Positions 34,593-47,176 of a stretch of DNA of 64,000 nt are shown here, piece by piece. Numbering within the stretch: position 1 is the stretch's first letter; every line of letters begins with the position of its first letter. The translations under genes and the position numbers were made by a program. The DNA comes from Methylosarcina fibrata AML-C10 (GTDB lineage Bacteria; Pseudomonadota; Gammaproteobacteria; Methylococcales; Methylomonadaceae), in NCBI RefSeq assembly GCF_000372865.1, contig NZ_KB889965.1, forward strand, positions 4,795,786 to 4,859,785, read 5' to 3'. A model generated the notes under the pieces. The model did not search any database. It was not told the DNA's origin and saw only the letters and a list, made by a program, of their open reading frames with translations.

Positions 34593-34677
34593 GCCGATGT
34601 GGTGAAATTGGTAGACACGCCATCTTGAGGGGGTGGTGACGCAAGTCGTGTCGGTTCAAATCCGACCATCGGCACCA
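34593..34677 (+). tRNA. tRNA-Leu (anticodon GAG)
   Basis: The acceptor stem GCCGATG pairs with CATCGGC, CCA is encoded, and the long variable arm of a class II tRNA is present. The anticodon arm CCATC-TTGAGGG-GGTGG gives GAG. It closely follows the E. coli tRNA-Leu(GAG) pattern. It lies downstream of secG, as in relatives, and its 3' end serves as attachment site for the island that follows. Confidence 0.96.
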
Positions 34678-34881: not shown

Positions 34882-36099
34882 ATGTTAAGCGACATTCAAG
34901 TAAGAAAAGCAAAAGCCCAAGACAAGCCCTATAAGCTGGCCGACGAAAAAGGATTGTACCTCTTCATTACGCCACAAGGCGGTAGATTATGGCGTTTTGA
35001 TTACCGCCATGAAGGGAAGAGAAAGACGCTTTCCTTTGGCGTTTATCCCGATGTGAGCTTATCGGATGCACGTGGAAAACGCGACGAAGCCCGAAAGCTC
35101 ATAGCAACCGGCAGCGATCCCTCTGCACAGCGTAAAGCGGCAAAGGCGGCGAAGGCTGAACGCGCCGCCAATAGTTTTGAAGTGATAGGCCGGGAATGGC
35201 ATCACATCCACATGAGCGACAAGACCGAAGACCATGCCAAGCGAACTTTAACCCGTCTGGAGCAGGACGTTTTTCCCTGGCTTGGCGGGCGGCCGTTAGC
35301 CGAGATCGAGGCGCCGGAAATCTTAACCGTTTTGAGGCGTATCGAGGCGAGAGGCGCGAACGAGCTGGCGCATACGGCAAAGCGCACAATCGGACAAATA
35401 TTCAGGTTTGCCATTGCAACGGGCAGAGCGGTAAGAAACCCGGTCCCCGACTTGCAGGGCGCCTTAAAGCCCGTATCGGTGACGCATTACGCGGCCATTA
35501 CCGACCCCGGAAAAATTGGGGAATTATTGCGGGCTGTCTACGGATATACAGGCAACCTTGAAACCCGGTGCGCTTTTAAACTCTCATTCTTCGTTATGTT
35601 GCGACCTGGCGAAGTGCGCCGGGCCGAATGGTGCGATATCAACCTTGAGCGCAAAGAGTGGCGCATACCCGGCCATAAAATGAAGATGCGGGACGAGCAC
35701 ATTATTCCGCTTTCACGTCAGGCCATTGAGATTCTGGAAGAGATACGGCCGTTGACCGGAGGAGGGCGCTACGTTTTTCCGAGTGTCCGAAGCGCAGACC
35801 GGCCGATGAGCGAAAACACCATTACCGGCGCACTGCGGCGCTTAGGTTATAGCGGCGATGAAATGACAGCTCACGGCTTCCGATCGATGGCGAGCACTCG
35901 GCTTAACGAATCGCATTTATTCCACCCCGATGCGATAGAAAGACAGCTTGCCCATGGCGAGCGGGATAGCGTACGGGCGGCTTACAACAGGGCTCAATAT
36001 TTGCCCGAGCGGGCCAAAATGCTGCAATGGTGGGCCGATTATCTGGATGGATTACGAGAGGGTGCCAAGGTTATTCCGATACGGGAGGCTAAGCGGTGA
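34882..36099 (+). CDS. P4-type tyrosine integrase (island 1)
   Basis: This 405-residue site-specific recombinase has the N-terminal arm-binding DUF4102 domain (LSDIQVRKAKAQDKPYKLADEKGLYL), a SAM-like core-binding domain (about 110-185) and the catalytic domain with Arg in MLRPGEVRRAEW, His and Arg in HGFRSMAST, a second His in QLAHGERD and the Tyr nucleophile in RAAYNRAQYLPER. It starts 205 bases behind the tRNA-Leu 3' end, its attachment site, and its stop overlaps the next gene (GTGA). Confidence 0.95.
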   Translation: MLSDIQVRKAKAQDKPYKLADEKGLYLFITPQGGRLWRFDYRHEGKRKTLSFGVYPDVSLSDARGKRDEARKLIATGSDPSAQRKAAKAAKAERAANSFEVIGREWHHIHMSDKTEDHAKRTLTRLEQDVFPWLGGRPLAEIEAPEILTVLRRIEARGANELAHTAKRTIGQIFRFAIATGRAVRNPVPDLQGALKPVSVTHYAAITDPGKIGELLRAVYGYTGNLETRCAFKLSFFVMLRPGEVRRAEWCDINLERKEWRIPGHKMKMRDEHIIPLSRQAIEILEEIRPLTGGGRYVFPSVRSADRPMSENTITGALRRLGYSGDEMTAHGFRSMASTRLNESHLFHPDAIERQLAHGERDSVRAAYNRAQYLPERAKMLQWWADYLDGLREGAKVIPIREAKR

Positions 36100-36602
36100 G
36101 TGTTCGTCTGGATTGCGGCGATTATAAGGGGCTGTTCCCGATGGAGTTTCATATTGTTGGAGTCTATTTCATCAAGTACGACGTGAAACCGCTTATAGAC
36201 CTGTTGCGCTCTGATCGGGAAATATCAGGGGGCATGCGCAGTTTTATAGCCGATGCTCTATCTGGAAAGTTCAAGCGTCCTCCCGGTAAGAAACCTTCTA
36301 AATTATCGCGTGATATGCGCATCCACGATAGGCTGGTAGATTTGGCCGAGGAAGCCAAGGCTAAAGGGAAAAAAGGCCTGTACACCGCCCATGTAACAAA
36401 AGTCATGCACGAGTTTAACCTCAGCGAGCACGACGTGAAAAACGCTTATAAGAGAGTGGAAAGAATAAGGAAGGATAGGTTGAAACTTCAGGAAGAATTA
36501 ATAGCGTCCGGAATGTGGAGGCTGGAAACCGACAGCGACGGGGAGACCCTTCTAATCTCTTGCATTGAACCGCCCTGGCTAAAAAAGCCGACCGAAGAGT
36601 AA
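36096..36602 (+). CDS. hypothetical island protein
   Basis: The GTG start overlaps the integrase stop by four bases, which implies coupled translation. The 168-residue protein is Lys/Arg-rich in the middle and end (KFKRPPGKKPSKLSRDMR; KNAYKRVERIRKDRLKLQ) and has a predicted helical C-terminal half, so it may bind nucleic acid. I do not recognise a family. Its place between int and alpA suggests a regulatory or excision role (inference). Confidence 0.7.
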   Translation: MSVRLDCGDYKGLFPMEFHIVGVYFIKYDVKPLIDLLRSDREISGGMRSFIADALSGKFKRPPGKKPSKLSRDMRIHDRLVDLAEEAKAKGKKGLYTAHVTKVMHEFNLSEHDVKNAYKRVERIRKDRLKLQEELIASGMWRLETDSDGETLLISCIEPPWLKKPTEE

Positions 36603-36731: not shown

Positions 36732-37058
36732 ATGGCTACAATCACACCTATTCAACCCACCCGTAACACTGTAGCGGCAGCCGTCATGCCCGACATCAAG
36801 CCGCTGCTACGTCGTCCCGCTGTTGAAGCGGCGACCGGCGAAAGCCGGTCAACAATCTACCGCAAAATCGAACGCGGCCTTTTCCCCAAGCCTGTTTGTA
36901 TTGGCCGAGACAAAAACGGAAATGCAAGTCAAGCCGGATGGCCGGCGCATGAAGTGGCGGCCATCAATCAGGCCCGTATTGCCGGAAAATCAGACGAAGA
37001 AATAAAGAAACTCGTGGCCGAGCTGGAGGCCGCGCGGACTATTGGCACGGGGGCCTGA
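36732..37058 (+). CDS. AlpA-family transcriptional regulator
   Basis: AlpA proteins are small MerR-like helix-turn-helix regulators that switch on integrase or excision functions of P4-like islands. The 108-residue protein has the typical LLRRPAVEAATGESRSTIYR recognition helix region followed by KIERGLFPKPV and GWPAHEVAAINQARIAG. ATG 36732 follows AAGGA at seven bases. It begins the replication-type gene set of the island. Confidence 0.88.
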   Translation: MATITPIQPTRNTVAAAVMPDIKPLLRRPAVEAATGESRSTIYRKIERGLFPKPVCIGRDKNGNASQAGWPAHEVAAINQARIAGKSDEEIKKLVAELEAARTIGTGA

Positions 37059-37062
37059 TCGA

Positions 37063-37473
37063 ATGACCGCACACAAAAAAGCCGCCGGAGTCGGGCAACT
37101 CCCAGCGGCTTACAAAAATTCAGAGCAACGCCATTTTACCCGAAAAAAACCACCATACGCCAATCAATTGAATCTGTTCGCCGGCGCCTGTCTGATCGTC
37201 TGCACCGGCAGCGGCGCATGGGAGCGTGCCAAGTTTCCGACTTGGTTTCCCGGCTGCAAGGTCGTGTTGCCGCCCGGCGATGATCCAGCGGCCTATGCCT
37301 GGAGCATGGCCGCCGGGTATGACGTGATGATTACCGGCTTCGGTGAGCTCGAGCCAATTGCAGAAATAGCAAAACTTGCCGGGCTATTGCTGGCGGCCGG
37401 GGCGGAGCTGGTGCTCTATGCTCCGGAACGCGGACCGGTTACGCGGATCGATGCACGGAGGGCAGCGGCATGA
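37063..37473 (+). CDS. hypothetical island protein
   Basis: This 136-residue protein has a Rossmann-like feel (ACLIVCTGSGAWERAKFP; GYDVMITGFGELEPIAEIA; AGAELVLYAPERGP) but no family that I can name. ATG 37063 is chosen; an in-frame TTG lies 21 bases earlier. The stop overlaps the ATG of the DUF3987 gene (ATGA at 37470), so the two are coupled and probably act together. Confidence 0.7.
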   Translation: MTAHKKAAGVGQLPAAYKNSEQRHFTRKKPPYANQLNLFAGACLIVCTGSGAWERAKFPTWFPGCKVVLPPGDDPAAYAWSMAAGYDVMITGFGELEPIAEIAKLAGLLLAAGAELVLYAPERGPVTRIDARRAAA

Positions 37474-38939
37474 GCGATTACGAGGTTATTGGTCCGGGGC
37501 ATATCGTCGTTGATGTGCCCCCGGCAGGCGAAAGGGGCGAAAGAGGCGAAAGCTCAGTACTGACGGTAGGTTCAGGCGGGCGAATTGGGGGCGAATCGAG
37601 GCGAAAATTAGGCGAATTCGCCTACCAATCGCCTGAATACCCGGTTGACGCGCTGGGCCCTCTGGCCGATTTGTGCAAAGTGATTGCCCTGAACGCCCAG
37701 CTCAACCCGGCAACCATAGGACAGTCCATCCTGTCGGCGGCATCATTGGCCGCTCAAGGGAGCTGTGAAGTCGAGACCCTGTCAGGCCATAAGCCGCTTT
37801 CGATTTACGCCCTGTCGATTGCCGAATCCGGCGACGGCAAGTCAACCGTCGAAAGCATCGTTTTGTGCGGTATTAAGCAGTACGAGAAAGAGCGTCACGG
37901 CGCGATAGAGGCCCGAAAAGCCGAGCAAGCCTCTCTGCCAGTGAAGGAACGAGCAATCGAGCGGGAACCCTATCTACTCGCTTCCGATGCAACGGTTCAA
38001 GGCATCATCAAGGGCTTCCTGACCGGCTGGCCGAGCCAGGGCATCTTCACCGCCGAGGGCGCAACGATGTTATGCGGCTGGGGCATGGCCGCCGAGCAGA
38101 GAGCCAACACATCGGCGAATCTGAACAAGCTATGGGATGGGGAAGCGGTGTCGGTTCAGCGCGGCATGAGCGGGCGAATTCAGCTTTATAACCGCCGTTT
38201 TTGCGCTCACTGGATGATCCAACCGGATGTCGCACAAGAAGCGTTAACTGACCCGGCTTTATCCAGTATCGGACTCTGGCCGAGGTTCATGGTGAGCTGG
38301 CCGGAGCCCTTGCCGCCGAGGAAATATCGCCGTTACGAATTCTGGAATGACCCCTACGTTAAAGCCTTCTGGGACCGGTGCAAGGCCATGCTTCGAGCAC
38401 AAGTCATTACCGACGACGGCGAATGTGGCGAGTTCCGCACGATCCGTCTGAGCGATGAGGCGCGTCAGATTCTGGTCGAAACCTTCGAGCGGATGGAACA
38501 GGCCCGCGACCCGGCAAACCCACTGCACTGCGTTAAGCCGTTTGCCGTCCGATTGTGTGAGCTGGCCTGCCGAAATGCCGGCGTCCTGGCCGCCTATGCA
38601 GATGAAAACACCATCAGCGCCGAGCGGATGAAAAACGGAATTGCGCTGGCCGGGTATTCGCTCGACACCTGGCGCGGCATCTTCGGGCAGCGGGAGGATC
38701 TGACTCATGATCGATGGGCGCGGGAGCTGTACGCATGGATGTTGAAGCGGCCAAATCAACGCGCCAGTGAAACCGATATTTTGAAAACGGCGACACCCAA
38801 GCACTTACGCAATAAGCATAAGCGCGATGTGGCATTATCGATCCTGCGCGAGTGCGGCCTGATTCAGAAAGCCGTGGACGTGGTGAACGGAGATGTCCGA
38901 ATTGCTTCCGCCGAATGGGAGGCAGTGCCCAATGCTTGA
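37470..38939 (+). CDS. DUF3987 replication-type protein
   Basis: DUF3987 proteins are phage and plasmid ATPases of the primase/helicase type, usually the replication gene of small integrative elements. The 489-residue protein has the domain start YPVDALGPLADLCKVIALNAQ, a Walker A-like ALSIAESGDGKST near residues 115-125, and EGATMLCGWGMAAEQRANTS with SANLNKLWDGEAVSVQRGMSG typical of the family. Its first 45 residues (GERGERGES ... GGESRRKLGEF) are encoded by a GGCGAA repeat array that recurs inverted in the next gene. Confidence 0.85.
   Translation: MSDYEVIGPGHIVVDVPPAGERGERGESSVLTVGSGGRIGGESRRKLGEFAYQSPEYPVDALGPLADLCKVIALNAQLNPATIGQSILSAASLAAQGSCEVETLSGHKPLSIYALSIAESGDGKSTVESIVLCGIKQYEKERHGAIEARKAEQASLPVKERAIEREPYLLASDATVQGIIKGFLTGWPSQGIFTAEGATMLCGWGMAAEQRANTSANLNKLWDGEAVSVQRGMSGRIQLYNRRFCAHWMIQPDVAQEALTDPALSSIGLWPRFMVSWPEPLPPRKYRRYEFWNDPYVKAFWDRCKAMLRAQVITDDGECGEFRTIRLSDEARQILVETFERMEQARDPANPLHCVKPFAVRLCELACRNAGVLAAYADENTISAERMKNGIALAGYSLDTWRGIFGQREDLTHDRWARELYAWMLKRPNQRASETDILKTATPKHLRNKHKRDVALSILRECGLIQKAVDVVNGDVRIASAEWEAVPNA
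37527..37622 (+). repeat. GGCGAA iteron array, left copy
   Basis: GGCGAA occurs at 37527, 37536, 37545, 37579, 37590, 37600 and 37611, plus TTCGCC at 37617. It is the inverted counterpart of 38967-39065, with the same successive spacings 9, 9, 34, 11, 10. Confidence 0.9.
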
Positions 38940-39348
38940 CGGCCTCCTTGACGACATCTTAGGCGATTCGCCCAAACGGGGCGAAATTCGCCCCGATTCG
39001 CCCGCAATTCGCCCGGCGCAAACCCGCGTCATTACTGAACTTTCGCCCGATTCGCCCGATTCGCCTACCCGCCATGAGAAAACCGCCATCCTTCGCTGGC
39101 TGCACTTCATCGGCGAAACCGATCAAGCCATGATTGACGACGTGCTCGACTATTGCGCCGGCAACCCGGACGCCCTGGCCTATTACCTGAAGCGGGCTGA
39201 AGAAGTGCCGCCGCCGGATGACCGCCACCATTGCCGGGAGTGCCGGAACCTGAACAGCCGAGGCTACTGCATCCGGCACCGGTTCCGGCCGGTGGACGAC
39301 CTACCGAGGCGCTGTGAAGACTTCAATGATTCAAGGATTCAACCATGA
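38932..39348 (+). CDS. hypothetical protein with zinc-ribbon-like C-terminus
   Basis: ATG 38932 follows GGGAGG and overlaps the DUF3987 stop. The 138-residue protein has an N-terminal low-complexity part (DSPKRGEIRPDSPAIRP; LSPDSPDSP) encoded by the right iteron array, a helical middle, and a Cys/His cluster (HHCRECRNLNSRGYCIRHRF) that resembles a small zinc-binding domain. No family is recognised; it may assist the DUF3987 protein. Confidence 0.75.
   Translation: MLDGLLDDILGDSPKRGEIRPDSPAIRPAQTRVITELSPDSPDSPTRHEKTAILRWLHFIGETDQAMIDDVLDYCAGNPDALAYYLKRAEEVPPPDDRHHCRECRNLNSRGYCIRHRFRPVDDLPRRCEDFNDSRIQP
38967..39065 (-). repeat. GGCGAA iteron array, right copy (inverted)
   Basis: TTCGCC occurs at 38967, 38987, 38997, 39008, 39042, 39051 and 39060, plus GGCGAA at 38980. 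Read on the minus strand it aligns with 37527-37622, including the segment between the repeats (TCAGTA, GACG). Confidence 0.9.
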
Positions 39349-41000: not shown

Positions 41001-41024
41001 TTCAAATCCGACCATCGCACCAAT
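41001..41024 (+). other. attachment site att-2 (imperfect tRNA-Leu end copy)
   Basis: Bases 41001-41024 repeat the tRNA-Leu T-arm to CCAAT (34655-34679) with one G missing from the acceptor stem. They define the right end of island 1 and the left end of the next element. Confidence 0.85.
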
Positions 41025-41195: not shown

Positions 41196-42480
41196 ATGGT
41201 GATTCAAGTGTCTGAATATAAAAGAAAAGATAACCTGATTCCGTCGGATGTAGCGATTAAAAACGCCAAGCCGAAAGAGAAACCTTACCGAATAAAGGAC
41301 GCCAGAGGGTTTTATTTGCGGGTGAATCCGGACGGCTCGAAATGGTGGCGGATGGAATACGCAATCGACGGCAAAAGGAACATGCTTTCGATCGGCGTTT
41401 ACCCCACGGTCAGCCTGGCCAAAGCCCGGGAAAAATACCGGGCATTGCAAGCGATGATTGCCGGCGGCATCGACCCCAGCGAGACCCGCAAACAAGCCCG
41501 GATCGAAAAAGCCGAAGCCTTAGACCGGGAGCAACGGAAAGCAAAGGGCATCCCGATTAAAGGCTCTTTCGAAGAAATCACTCGCACCTGGATGACATCC
41601 ACCGCCCATACCGTCCGGGACATGACTCGCCAAAAGAAAATCAGGCGTTTCGAAAGGCACGTCTTTCCGGCGATCGGAGACAAAGACATGAAAGAAATCA
41701 AATCTCCGGAAATCTACGGTCTACTCAAGCCGCTTATAGCCCGGAACGAACTCGAAACGGCGCACCGCGCACACAGCGAAATCAGCGCCGTTTTCGCCTA
41801 TGCCATTGCTCACGGTTTCGCCGACTACGATCCGGCGCAACCTGTCGGCACCCAATTGCCGCCTCAAAGTAAAGCACCGGGCGGCCCTGACCGAACCCAA
41901 AGACGTGGCCGGCCTGCTGCGGGATATCTACAGCTACCAAGGAACCTTCGTTGTTCAATGCGCCTTCCGGTTTTCGCCCTTGGTTTTTCAACGTCCCGGA
42001 GAGATCCGGCAAATGGAATGGAAGGATGTCGACCTGGCCGCCAGAGAATGGCGCTATTTCGTCACCAAGACCGAAGTCCAGCACATTGTCCCATTATCGA
42101 GGCAGGCCATCGAGATACTTCAAGCCATCAGGCCGTTGACCGGATCCGGCCGCTATGTCTTTCCATCCAGCCGCGGCGACGGCCGTCCGATGTCGGACAA
42201 CACCATCCGAACCGCGCTTAAAACGCTGGGGTATGAAAGCGATGTGATGACCGCGCACGGCTTCCGAACCACGGCATCCACACTTCTGAACGAACAAGGC
42301 TGGAGCCCGGGCGCGATCGAGCGCCAGCTCTGCCACATGCCCAGGGATGCCGTCAGAGCGGCTTATAACCGGGCACAATACCTGGACGAAAGGCGGAAAA
42401 TGATGCAGGCATGGGCCGATTATTTGGATCATCTGAAGGCTGGCGCCGTAGTAATCCTGATTTATAAAAACGATAAATAA
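41196..42480 (+). pseudogene. P4-type tyrosine integrase (element 2), frameshifted
   Basis: The first part (to about 41865) encodes the DUF4102 arm-binding domain (IPSDVAIKNAKPKEKPYRIK) and core-binding domain; the second part, in another frame to 42480, encodes the catalytic domain with PGEIRQMEW, HGFRTTAST, QLCHMPRD and RAAYNRAQYLDER, so Arg, His, Arg, His and Tyr are all present. One extra A in AAA at 41865-41867 explains the break; removing it joins QLPPQ to VKHRAALTEPKD. It is similar to integrase 1 along its length. A sequencing error would give the same picture. Confidence 0.88.
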
Positions 42481-44126: not shown

Positions 44127-45155
44127 ATGATCCTAGTTAATTTTAAAGCCCATGGTGAATGGTTAGTTCGTAATGGCGACTCCAGAAAACTCGCAATTGC
44201 CAGGAAAACAAAAAACCCATTTGAAGATCCTTTGGAATGGAAGCCGCCAAAGCGGTATGGACTCTATTCGGATGACTATCCAGATCCGGAAGACGATGAA
44301 AGTTCTTATGAAAATCAACAAACTTTTCCAGACAAAAATTATGAATATGACAGGGATTTACAAGGCATTTTTGTCAGAGATCCAAATGTCAGAGGCAAAG
44401 TGTACGATACCAATGGCTTGCGCTGTTTGAGGGCAGAATACATGTCATGCCCGCTCGAAAGAGGCGTATTTAGATTAAGCGATGACGATGAAGAGGATTT
44501 TAGGCTAGCTGGATTTAACCAGAAAACTGACTGGAATGAATTTAAAGAACGAATAAAAATATTGCTCCCATGTTCACATCCTCAAAGCGCCTTCATAAAG
44601 AAAGTTAATGATGGGAAATTATTAACTGCTGATATTGACCGGATTTACTTCGAAATACAGCGAAAACACTATTTCGATTATTTCCGCAAATCAGCGCCAA
44701 TAGAACACGAATGCCATTTGGATTTTGTAAGCATTGACAGCGCGTATTCTTCTAATAATGGTTCGGTATCAGAAAATGACAAGCGGCTTGCAAGTCTCAC
44801 TGAATTTATTCAATGGCTCGAAAATCAGGTTAAAAATGATGGTTTTGATTTCGATCACTTTAATTTAGATTGTACGAAAGATCAGTTATTTGATCATTTA
44901 AGGCGTTGGGAAGAATCTCGAATTTCAAAAAAAGATCGTGTTTGGGATGTAAAGAGATGGAATTCATGTCGTGGGCGAAGAACGGGAATACTATTTGGGC
45001 TGGAACTTGCGGGCGCTCAACGAGCGGCTAAAAAACGCCGCCGCCGAATCTTCCGAACGTTTGGCAGAGGAATTCATCTGGCTGGAAAGGTGTCAATGGC
45101 CAACAGAATTGAGCCAGTTTTGGCCATTAAAATTGAGCCACTTTTCCAGGATTAA
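44127..45155 (+). CDS. hypothetical AT-rich gene, 3' end probably replaced
   Basis: ATG 44127 follows GGAG at six bases. About 280 residues (MILVNFKAHGEWLVRNGD to RRWEESRISKKDRVWDVKRW) look like a genuine soluble, acidic protein of low-GC DNA, with no family I recognise. From about 44960 the frame becomes GC-rich and Arg-rich and, after 45091, reads into the IS21 end, so the natural C-terminus has been lost. It is flanked by phage-satellite genes and an insertion sequence. Confidence 0.6.
   Translation: MILVNFKAHGEWLVRNGDSRKLAIARKTKNPFEDPLEWKPPKRYGLYSDDYPDPEDDESSYENQQTFPDKNYEYDRDLQGIFVRDPNVRGKVYDTNGLRCLRAEYMSCPLERGVFRLSDDDEEDFRLAGFNQKTDWNEFKERIKILLPCSHPQSAFIKKVNDGKLLTADIDRIYFEIQRKHYFDYFRKSAPIEHECHLDFVSIDSAYSSNNGSVSENDKRLASLTEFIQWLENQVKNDGFDFDHFNLDCTKDQLFDHLRRWEESRISKKDRVWDVKRWNSCRGRRTGILFGLELAGAQRAAKKRRRRIFRTFGRGIHLAGKVSMANRIEPVLAIKIEPLFQD
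44971..45090 (+). pseudogene. 5' fragment of a GC-rich gene cut by IS21
   Basis: A frame from GTG 44971 (GEEREYYLGWNLRALNERLK to EEFIWLER) shows coding-like composition for 40 residues and is interrupted exactly where the IS21 end begins. The rest of the gene is not seen nearby. The family is not recognised. Confidence 0.35.
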
Positions 45156-45945
45156 GATGGCTGATTCAGTTTTGTTTTGAGTCGGTAACTTTCTCCTCCG
45201 AGCATAAAAATGTGTGAATGATGGATAATGCGGTCGATGATCGGTACGGCGACGTTATCATCGTGGAAGAACTCGCTCCATTGGGTGAAGTCCTTGTTGG
45301 TGGTCAGGATGATCGACCGGTATTCATACAGCGCGTTGATGAGCTGAAACAGGTTATGCCGTCCTTGTTTGTTCATCGGCAGATACCCCAGTTCATCGAT
45401 GATCAACACATCGAACTTGAGCAACTGGTTGATCTTCTTTTTCAACTCGCCTTTGAGTTCGGCCACTTCCAGGGTTTCCATCAGGCTGAGGGCGGTGTGG
45501 AAGCTGACTTTGTAACCGGCGTCGATGGCTTTCAGACCGATGCCGATGGCCAGATGGGTCTTGCCGACGCCGGGCGGGCCGATGAAGACGACGTTGTCGC
45601 GGTTGTCGATAAAGCCGAAGTCGAGCAGGCTGTTGACCTCGGCAACTGCTCCTGCGTTGCTCTACCTCCTGCATCCATGCAGTCGTCGCGTTTGCTGATC
45701 GTGGTCTGGAACCGGTAATCGAACTCTTCCAGACTTTTGTGCAGCGGAAAGCCCGCGCGTTTACGGTTTTGCTCGATGCGCTTGCCGTTGCGTTGTTGCT
45801 GTTCGTGCAGGACCAGGCTTTCGGCAAACTGCAGATAGGAGCTTTCATGGGCTTCGGCCTGGCTCAACAGTTGTTCCAGCGCGTCGGCAATACCGGCCAG
45901 GCAGAGACTGCCGTACCTCTGGGCGACGCTGTTAATGGACGCCAT
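45152..45945 (-). pseudogene. istB: IstB helper ATPase of IS21, disrupted
   Basis: IstB is the AAA+ helper of IS21 transposition. The N-terminal part (GIADALEQLLSQAEAHESSY; EEFDYRFQTTISKRD) and the C-terminal part (DNVVFIGPPGVGKTHLAIGI by the second frame, then VLIIDELGYLPMNKQG and IIDRIIHHSHIFMLGGESYR) lie in different frames. Between them sit about 47 extra bases (around 45638-45684) that contain TGCATGGATGCA and shift the frame. Walker A and B are otherwise intact. Confidence 0.88.
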
Positions 45946-47176
45946 GGCTCACTCCCTGGCCAGTGGGGTGGCCATGCAGGGCGCCATAACGCGCCAGGAC
46001 GGTTGACGCCGGGCTGGCCGTTGGTTTCGCCTCGGCCGGCGTGATCCGCTCAGGGTGCCGCTGGTAGGCGGCCAGCCGTTCCTTAAGCCCGGTGGCGGTT
46101 AAGCGTGGCGTATCGAGGAGTCGTTGCCACAGCGCTTCAGGCAAGGCGCCGTGGCTCCGAATGTGCTCGGCCAGCACTTGTTTGGCGCCCGCCAACTGGT
46201 CTTTGTAGATTTTCGGCGAGGTGGCTTTCAGCACCGCGCAGAGCGCCAACGCCAGGTCTGGCTTAGCCAGCAACTGTTGCAGTTCCTGTTCCAGCGTTTC
46301 GACGCGCAGCTCCCTGTCGCGGTAATGATGGGTGTTCTTGATGATCTGTCCTTTGTCCAGACACACGCCATGTTCGGCGATCACTTCGCCGCTGCTCAAG
46401 TCGCTGATCCGTAGCCGGCCGTCTTGTTCGCAAACGCCAACCCGCGCATTTTGATATGCCATCGGTACCGAGTATTTATTCGACTGCCAGGCGATCAGGC
46501 CGGTCTTATCGGCTTTGCGCGTCACCACGACGGCCGCTGTGGCATCGAGACAGGACGGGGTCAGATACGGCAACATCTTGGCTTTTTCCTCACGATCATA
46601 CAAGGCGCGCGGGGACTGACCGGTACTGCCGTGGAGGCGTTGATTGGCAATCCGCTCCTGCCAGTCGGCCACATGCTGCTCCAGGTCACGCCAATCGGCA
46701 AAGGTCTCGCCGTACAGCCCGTTGTGCTTGACATATTTGACACCGGCTTCGACCTTGCCTTTGCTTTCCGGATCATAGCCTTCACAGGAGCGGATGTGAA
46801 AGCCGGCGGCCGTCGCATACTGATGGAAACGCTGATTCAAGGTTAACTCCCGAAACGTTTCGTTGATCACTACCAGCTTGGTCTGATCGTACACGCATTC
46901 CTGCGGCATGCCGCCGAAATAGCGGAACGCGGCATCGTGCTGGCGAATCAACAGGTCAGTATCGATCGGACGGTCAGAGACCGACACAGACATCAGCCGT
47001 GAATAAGACAGTACGAACACCGTAAAATACACCGTGGTTTCCGTACCTCCGATCATGACGCCGCGCAACTCGCCGCCGTCGACTTGACATTGTTCGCCCG
47101 GCACCATGTCCAGCACCGGTTCGTAGTAGCGGGCCTGTTTGAAGCTGATCTCTTGCTTCAACGCCTGGATCAGCAA
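45932..47176 (-). pseudogene. istA: IstA transposase of IS21, 5'-truncated
   Basis: The 414 codons include the DDE core: VPGEQCQVDGGELRGVM with the first Asp, VYDQTKLVVI with the second, and EGYDPESKGKVEAGVKYVK with the Glu. The N-terminal helix-turn-helix of IstA, about 90-100 residues, is missing because the reading frame ends at the junction with IS3 DNA near 47190. The stop overlaps the istB start, as usual in this family. Confidence 0.88.

Follow-up and report, generated by a model that had tools for sequence, protein, structure and literature searches.

Two opposed arrays of a six-base motif, one near the start and one just past the end of a DUF3987 gene in Methylosarcina fibrata AML-C10, are probably iterons that are bound by the DUF3987 protein and that would together make up the origin from which a 6.3-kb integrative island replicates. 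Sequence comparison and a structural model make it most likely that the arrays are origin halves read by the C-terminal tail of the protein, because changes in the repeat and in the tail match across related genes. Computation established the arrays themselves, how they are conserved and how they covary with the protein, both in the 64,000-nucleotide stretch analysed here (the window, whose coordinates are used throughout) and in related loci.

The island and its genes

The island of about 6.3 kb extends from a repeat within a tRNA-Leu gene (34655) to its copy at 41001. Its features are:

34655-34677, plus strand: attL-like repeat in the 3' end of tRNA-Leu (34593-34677); exact 17-nt repeat at 34655 and 41001, extended with one gap by local alignment
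34882-36099, plus strand: tyrosine integrase (Pfam PF22022, PF13356, PF00589)
36096-36602, plus strand: ORF overlapping the integrase gene by 4 nt (ORF list; no Pfam match; like iolg of PICMI satellites in position alone)
36732-37058, plus strand: AlpA-like regulator (PF05930, E 4.5e-8)
37063-37473, plus strand: ORF preceding the DUF3987 gene (ORF list; no Pfam match)
37470-38939, plus strand: DUF3987 protein, 489 aa (PF13148, E 4.4e-58), a proposed MCM-like initiator helicase with a C-terminal winged helix
37527-37622, minus strand: left arm, GGCGAA at 37527, 37536, 37545, 37579, 37590, 37600 and 37611, then a single TTCGCC at 37617
38772-38786, plus strand: codons 435-439 (T435 to K439), proposed base-reading positions (alignment columns 760 and 764; from covariation, and within helix 435-441 of the model)
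38932-39348, plus strand: small ORF starting inside the end of the DUF3987 gene, its N-terminus containing the right arm (ORF list)
38967-39065, plus strand: right arm, TTCGCC at 38967, 38987, 38997, 39008, 39042, 39051 and 39060, plus a single GGCGAA at 38980
41001-41022, plus strand: attR-like repeat (repeat match and local alignment)

The window DUF3987 protein matches no Pfam family besides PF13148 at an E-value of 0.001. The slot before the DUF3987 gene is occupied in two other islands of the same genome, and in locus L006, by a different ORF that is zinc-finger-like by eye. Immediately past the attR-like repeat lies another integrase-like gene, broken across two overlapping frames (41196-42480) and probably the remnant of a tandem island, and minus-strand ORFs at 45152-47176 resemble, by eye, an IS21-type transposase pair.

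Two opposed hexamer arrays

An initial annotation of this DNA had reported seven GGCGAA hexamers and seven inverted TTCGCC hexamers, with identical first five spacings when read from the outer ends (9, 9, 34, 11 and 10), and all 14 copies and the spacings of both arms were confirmed. Each arm also holds one opposite-sense site absent from that list (TTCGCC at 37617, GGCGAA at 38980). The window contains GGCGAA 60 times and TTCGCC 41 times, and outside the two clusters no 100-nt stretch among the 12 best listed per motif carries more than two copies; a naive and post-hoc Poisson estimate for seven copies in 95 nt is 2.5e-12. A repeat finder independently recovered the arms as an 83-nt inverted repeat with 80% complementarity, and when compared without gaps from the outer end they agree at 63 of 79 bases, or at 27 of the 43 outside the hexamers. 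Genome-wide, three closely spaced GGCGAA copies occur at 17 places, 16 of which are at three DUF3987 islands.

Both arms lie within coding sequence, as had also been annotated, and the hexamers of each arm fall in two codon phases, so a single peptide repeat cannot explain them. It is hardly credible, then, that the arrays are low-complexity coding repeats (Gly-Glu-Ser, Ser-Pro-Asp) produced by slippage and devoid of function as DNA. The 9-bp period of the outer triplets does equal three codons, but other loci show 8-bp steps, the arrays are opposed and the motif covaries with one protein residue. Moreover, the right arm of the related locus L007 is covered by two short ORFs (49 and 54 aa) and by none of at least 60 aa, and the peptides differ.

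Conservation of the arms in sister islands and relatives

Two more DUF3987 islands are present in the genome, near tmRNA and tRNA-Lys genes, with DUF3987 proteins 92-93% identical to that of the window; their integrases differ (56% and about 24% identity). When the three islands are aligned, similarity begins at the left array, spans the gene and the right array and reaches into the next ORF, while the upstream genes differ. Opposed arrays are also kept in G054 and G083, whose DUF3987 proteins are 65% and 55% identical. Left-arm spacings are 9, 9, 34, 11, 10 and 11 in four of five loci (9, 9, 34, 21 and 10 in L006), and right-arm spacings of 9, 9 and 34 occur in all five, with one additional outer copy in L002. 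The arms thus recur in sister islands and in more distant relatives, which upholds the earlier view that conservation acts on the DNA, and the sequences support selection on the DNA behind it. In L227, ORFs of the G083 island beside the DUF3987 module resemble, by eye, a small terminase and a head protease.

All seven loci found with a full-length DUF3987 protein at least 42% identical (L001, L002, L003, L006, L007, L051 and L052) carry two opposed arrays; the case named beforehand as counter-evidence, the same DUF3987 protein with arrays missing or single, was not seen. The Chromatiaceae loci L051 and L052 (43% and 42%) have the motif GGGCGACA in a full mirrored arrangement with both halves 3' of the gene, so the description of the arrays as flanking the gene is correct for the window's clade but does not extend to these two. 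The 3' side in the window, L006 and L007 is without most of its own left half.

That the arrays accompany the DUF3987 protein, as had been proposed, is borne out by relatives that keep both and by a remnant in the same genome (L005), in which 54 DUF3987 residues are left, the following ORF is still open and the stretch of the right array from the first to the last TTCGCC is gone. This loss of the array together with the gene, with the ORF remaining open, suggests from a single case that the array travels with the gene and is dispensable for the ORF.

The two arms of L007 match at 78 of 79 bases; outside the hexamers they agree at all 43, where comparisons between genomes give 20 to 27 of 43. 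As the arms of other genomes differ from those of L007 at about half of the non-hexamer positions, the arms within the locus have been homogenised. This likeness, together with the start of homology among the three islands at the left array, would fit arrays acting as recombination sites for module exchange or for inversion of the DUF3987 segment. Such a role is very unlikely, however, given that the gene points the same way in all seven close loci and that the residue tracking the motif lies in the helicase, not in an integrase. Exchange may be a by-product.

Arrays across DUF3987 loci

DUF3987 loci were gathered by protein and Pfam searches, a survey that favours loci resembling the queries. 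The 184 loci were reduced to 182 with a DUF3987 ORF, 178 covering 70% of the model, 125 under 90% identity and 122 with 200 nt downstream. Arrays were called from sequence alone, under a strict test that required an opposed pair of the same 6-mer in steps of 8-10 or 17-19 bp just past the DUF3987 stop codon. This 3' dyad was found in 43 of the 122 non-redundant loci (79 fail). As controls, 983 other windows from these loci gave 3 matches and 2440 shuffles gave none; by eye, the three are themselves arrays displaced from an ORF end or from a broken gene. When the dyad test was relaxed (at least six copies), 40 of 121 loci passed, as did 6 of 976 control windows and 6 of 2420 shuffles. Arrays past the stop codon often sit inside the start of the next ORF, and the spacer of compact dyads is lower in GC than its own locus in 25 of 38. 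Among IMG/VR loci the strict test succeeded in 5 of 33 and failed in 28, against 0 of 901 controls; with contigs there mostly phage-sized, this low rate suggests a feature typical of islands. With the window protein alone as query, IMG/VR gave one pattern match and no relative, and INPHARED phages gave no match for it and one weak match for a mainstream DUF3987 protein.

Many DUF3987 loci have no visible array in their sequence, and none occurs within 330 nt of three enterobacterial yfjI loci. Pfam DUF3987 matches are present in 95 of 301 genomes of the order and in 39 of 369 genomes of a class sample. A long-ORF clade (L130, L137, L140 and L148; 630-740 aa) carries a small dyad, GCTAAA/TTTAGC, 23-52 nt past the stop codon. 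In L054, a 19-kb circular Pseudomonas putida record (NZ_CP043577), a TGTCGCC array follows the DUF3987 gene; no gene listed in its incomplete gene table is annotated as a replication protein, making the DUF3987 product a candidate for that function, and GC skew marks no origin in the record.

In most array-bearing loci both opposed sets lie together 3' of the gene, and the window fails the strict test because its left half lies upstream. An extra array with this motif can lie in the linker, 80 to 190 nt ahead of the helicase domain. It has at least two copies in 7 of the 43 strict loci, and it is also found in the window's clade, in L010 and in a few others. The window, with an upstream array and half of a 3' dyad, thus combines both arrangements. 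The second array beside a complete 3' dyad in those seven loci favours the main rival explanation, in which replication would start from the 3' array while the gene-start array would serve copy control or handcuffing, as crr does in phage P4. This is possible but somewhat unlikely: in the window, L006 and L007 the 3' side has lost most of its left half, so that the upstream arm looks like the missing half and not like an extra one.

The arrays might also be operators through which DUF3987 or another island protein regulates transcription of the gene and its neighbour. They do lie at the starts of two genes, and autorepression by initiators is common. An operator function is nevertheless unlikely, since the arrays are inside coding sequence, the majority in the survey are 3' of the gene, and about six sites of fixed geometry per arm exceed what an operator needs. 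Nothing was found pointing to the AlpA-like protein, which the initial annotation had put forward as a possible binder of the arrays.

Covariation of the motif with the winged helix

A further link between arrays and protein comes from a check suggested beforehand, namely whether hexamer and protein covary across related islands: a base of the repeat tracks a winged-helix residue. Oriented alike, most motifs share the core T[A/C]GC, found in the window as TTCGCC. In a scan of 23 training loci, column 764 of the alignment, in the C-terminal winged helix, separated eight TCGC loci (R5, N3) from 15 TAGC loci (Q11, T4). The held-out set comprised 135 loci, 47 of them with a callable motif and some being near relatives (L190/L191; L001/L006/L007), and in it R or K stands at column 764 in 21 of 22 TCGC loci (R17, K4, G1) against 1 of 25 TAGC loci (Q15, T2, N2, D4, K1, V1; Fisher 3.7e-11). 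Arginine or lysine with a G:C pair, and glutamine with an A:T pair, are classic contacts. Among 435 columns, 764 ranks first (MI 0.89, with the runner-up at 0.48; 0 of 300 within-clade label permutations reached the observed value). Trees were built without the winged helix, by a quick method that gave long-branch warnings; on them, 13 tree-independent pairs from all loci go in the same direction in 10.6 cases on average and never in the opposite one (p about 0.001), and nine pairs from strict held-out loci only do so in 8.3, with none opposite (p about 0.008).

Column 760, four residues or one helical turn before 764, best tracks the base preceding the core T, with R in 21 of 25 loci that have G there and in 1 of 23 that do not (tree test, 10 pairs, p about 0.04). 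The window agrees with the pattern (K439 and T435 with TTCGCC), and a plasmid gene of Legionella fallonii, added later, combines R/Q with GTAGC. The column scan and the tree relied on the loosest motif call, which was obtained in 62 of 155 loci and fires also in 76 of 1884 control windows; some 6 of those 62 could thus be chance hits. When at least four identical sites were required (50 of 155 loci against 5 of 1884), the result was kept, with R or K in 17 of 21 TCGC loci against 1 of 29 TAGC loci.

Exceptions at column 764 are D or K with TTTAGC in a clade of about 730 aa, G in L185 and L192, and V in L095; L130, L137, L140 and L148 likewise have D, not Q or R, there. The TTAAGCA motif of L053 and L232 also departs from the code. 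The scan found no clean winged-helix column for other motif positions, and helicase columns are among the best for positions +1 and +2, so the code is partial. Overall motif similarity follows protein identity in both the helicase (rho 0.26) and the C-terminal part (rho 0.29; 0 of 500 permutations), and by itself this correlation cannot separate binding from descent.

Fold of the protein and a proposed mechanism

An AlphaFold2 model of the window protein (pLDDT 77.9, pTM 0.73) contains an AAA+ core and a C-terminal winged helix, the latter at moderate confidence (pLDDT blocks of about 61 to 81). All 50 matches listed by Foldseek are MCM chains (E 3.6e-5 to 3.7e-4), as are all 50 listed by VIA (Z 16.2-17.9), where rows with an rmsd of 3.3-3.8 align 246-275 residues starting at residue 63. 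The protein, with its AAA+ core, accordingly models as an MCM-like AAA+ helicase. Residues 435-439 lie within the helix before a GPxxLR-like turn, and this helix (435-441) may enter the major groove.

From sequence, model and analogy we infer binding by DUF3987, hexamer loading, origin activity and a role for the split. The protein would be an MCM-like helicase whose winged helix reads the iterons, that is, an initiator like SaPI Rep with its own iteron origin. In the window's clade the DUF3987 gene has one set of iterons at its start and the second just past its end, which would place the initiator gene between two half-origins, each with about six sites. Two hexamers could then assemble after excision, in opposite directions and one per arm, and start replication. 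By analogy, DUF3987 may bind the arms and load as opposed hexamers, and about six sites per arm would be compatible with one hexamer each, a number that fits such loading but does not show it. The full version of this model can be offered only tentatively: a split origin with one MCM-like hexamer per arm of about six iterons, the hexamers facing each other across 1.4 kb that contain the initiator gene, the arms homogenised by concerted evolution, and a code of two winged-helix residues (columns 760 and 764) setting the iteron of each satellite lineage.

Comparison with known systems

Phage P4 has two separate iteron regions, ori and crr, for one initiator, the alpha protein. The likeness to the window lies in the two regions per initiator, while the initiator family differs (the window protein has PF13148 only) and the window arms are inverted and closely flank the initiator gene. 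Of the proposal of a P4-like replication or copy-control pair, a replication role therefore stands as the best reading, but P4 ori and crr are not the closest parallel, the Rep helicases of SaPI, PICI and SCC elements being closer.

According to the available text on SaPI Rep and SCC Cch2, the C-terminal domain binds iterons beside the protein's own gene, and MCM-like behaviour is described for Cch (PMC7581432). The window shares with these systems, as the same text presents them, a helicase on a mobile island, short iterons adjoining its gene and a C-terminal domain (predicted, in the window) that reads them (PMC7581432). It differs in its family, which is DUF3987 and not DUF927 or D5/Primase_Cterm, and in the T[A/C]GC code; furthermore, the iteron origin there is downstream, whereas the gene in the window's clade lies between two arms (PMC7581432). 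Gram-negative PICIs have, in the part of their description available, two iteron sets beside rep that flank an AT-rich region 3' of the gene (PMC6092414). Two iteron sets adjoining the putative initiator gene are likewise present in the window, but the interval between them is the DUF3987 gene at 58% GC and not an AT-rich spacer 3' of it. Both sets lie immediately 3' of the gene, as in PICI and SaPI rep-ori, in the 43 strict loci and not in the window.

The size and gene content of the island resemble those of the PICMI satellites of Vibrionaceae, which in the available text are of about 6 kb and encode an integrase, the product of an ORF that shares 4 nt with the integrase gene, AlpA and a DUF3987-type prim (PMC10803314); Pfam identifies integrase, AlpA and DUF3987 genes in the window. 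The prim gene, found by its authors with the DUF3987 model, is needed for normal satellite copy number, and PICMI elements are located at fis, in contrast to the att repeat in tRNA-Leu in the window (PMC10803314). The available text of that description makes no mention of iterons (PMC10803314), and none was found in the accessible parts of the DUF3987 literature, in which the family has been predicted as a helicase (PMC5862659).

Significance

DUF3987 (YfjI) is a widespread family of unknown function. Through the covariation, many of its island members gain a candidate role as origin-binding initiator helicases, and the probable origins of DUF3987 islands can be located. A two-residue recognition code of this kind could explain how related satellites in one cell keep their replication apart.
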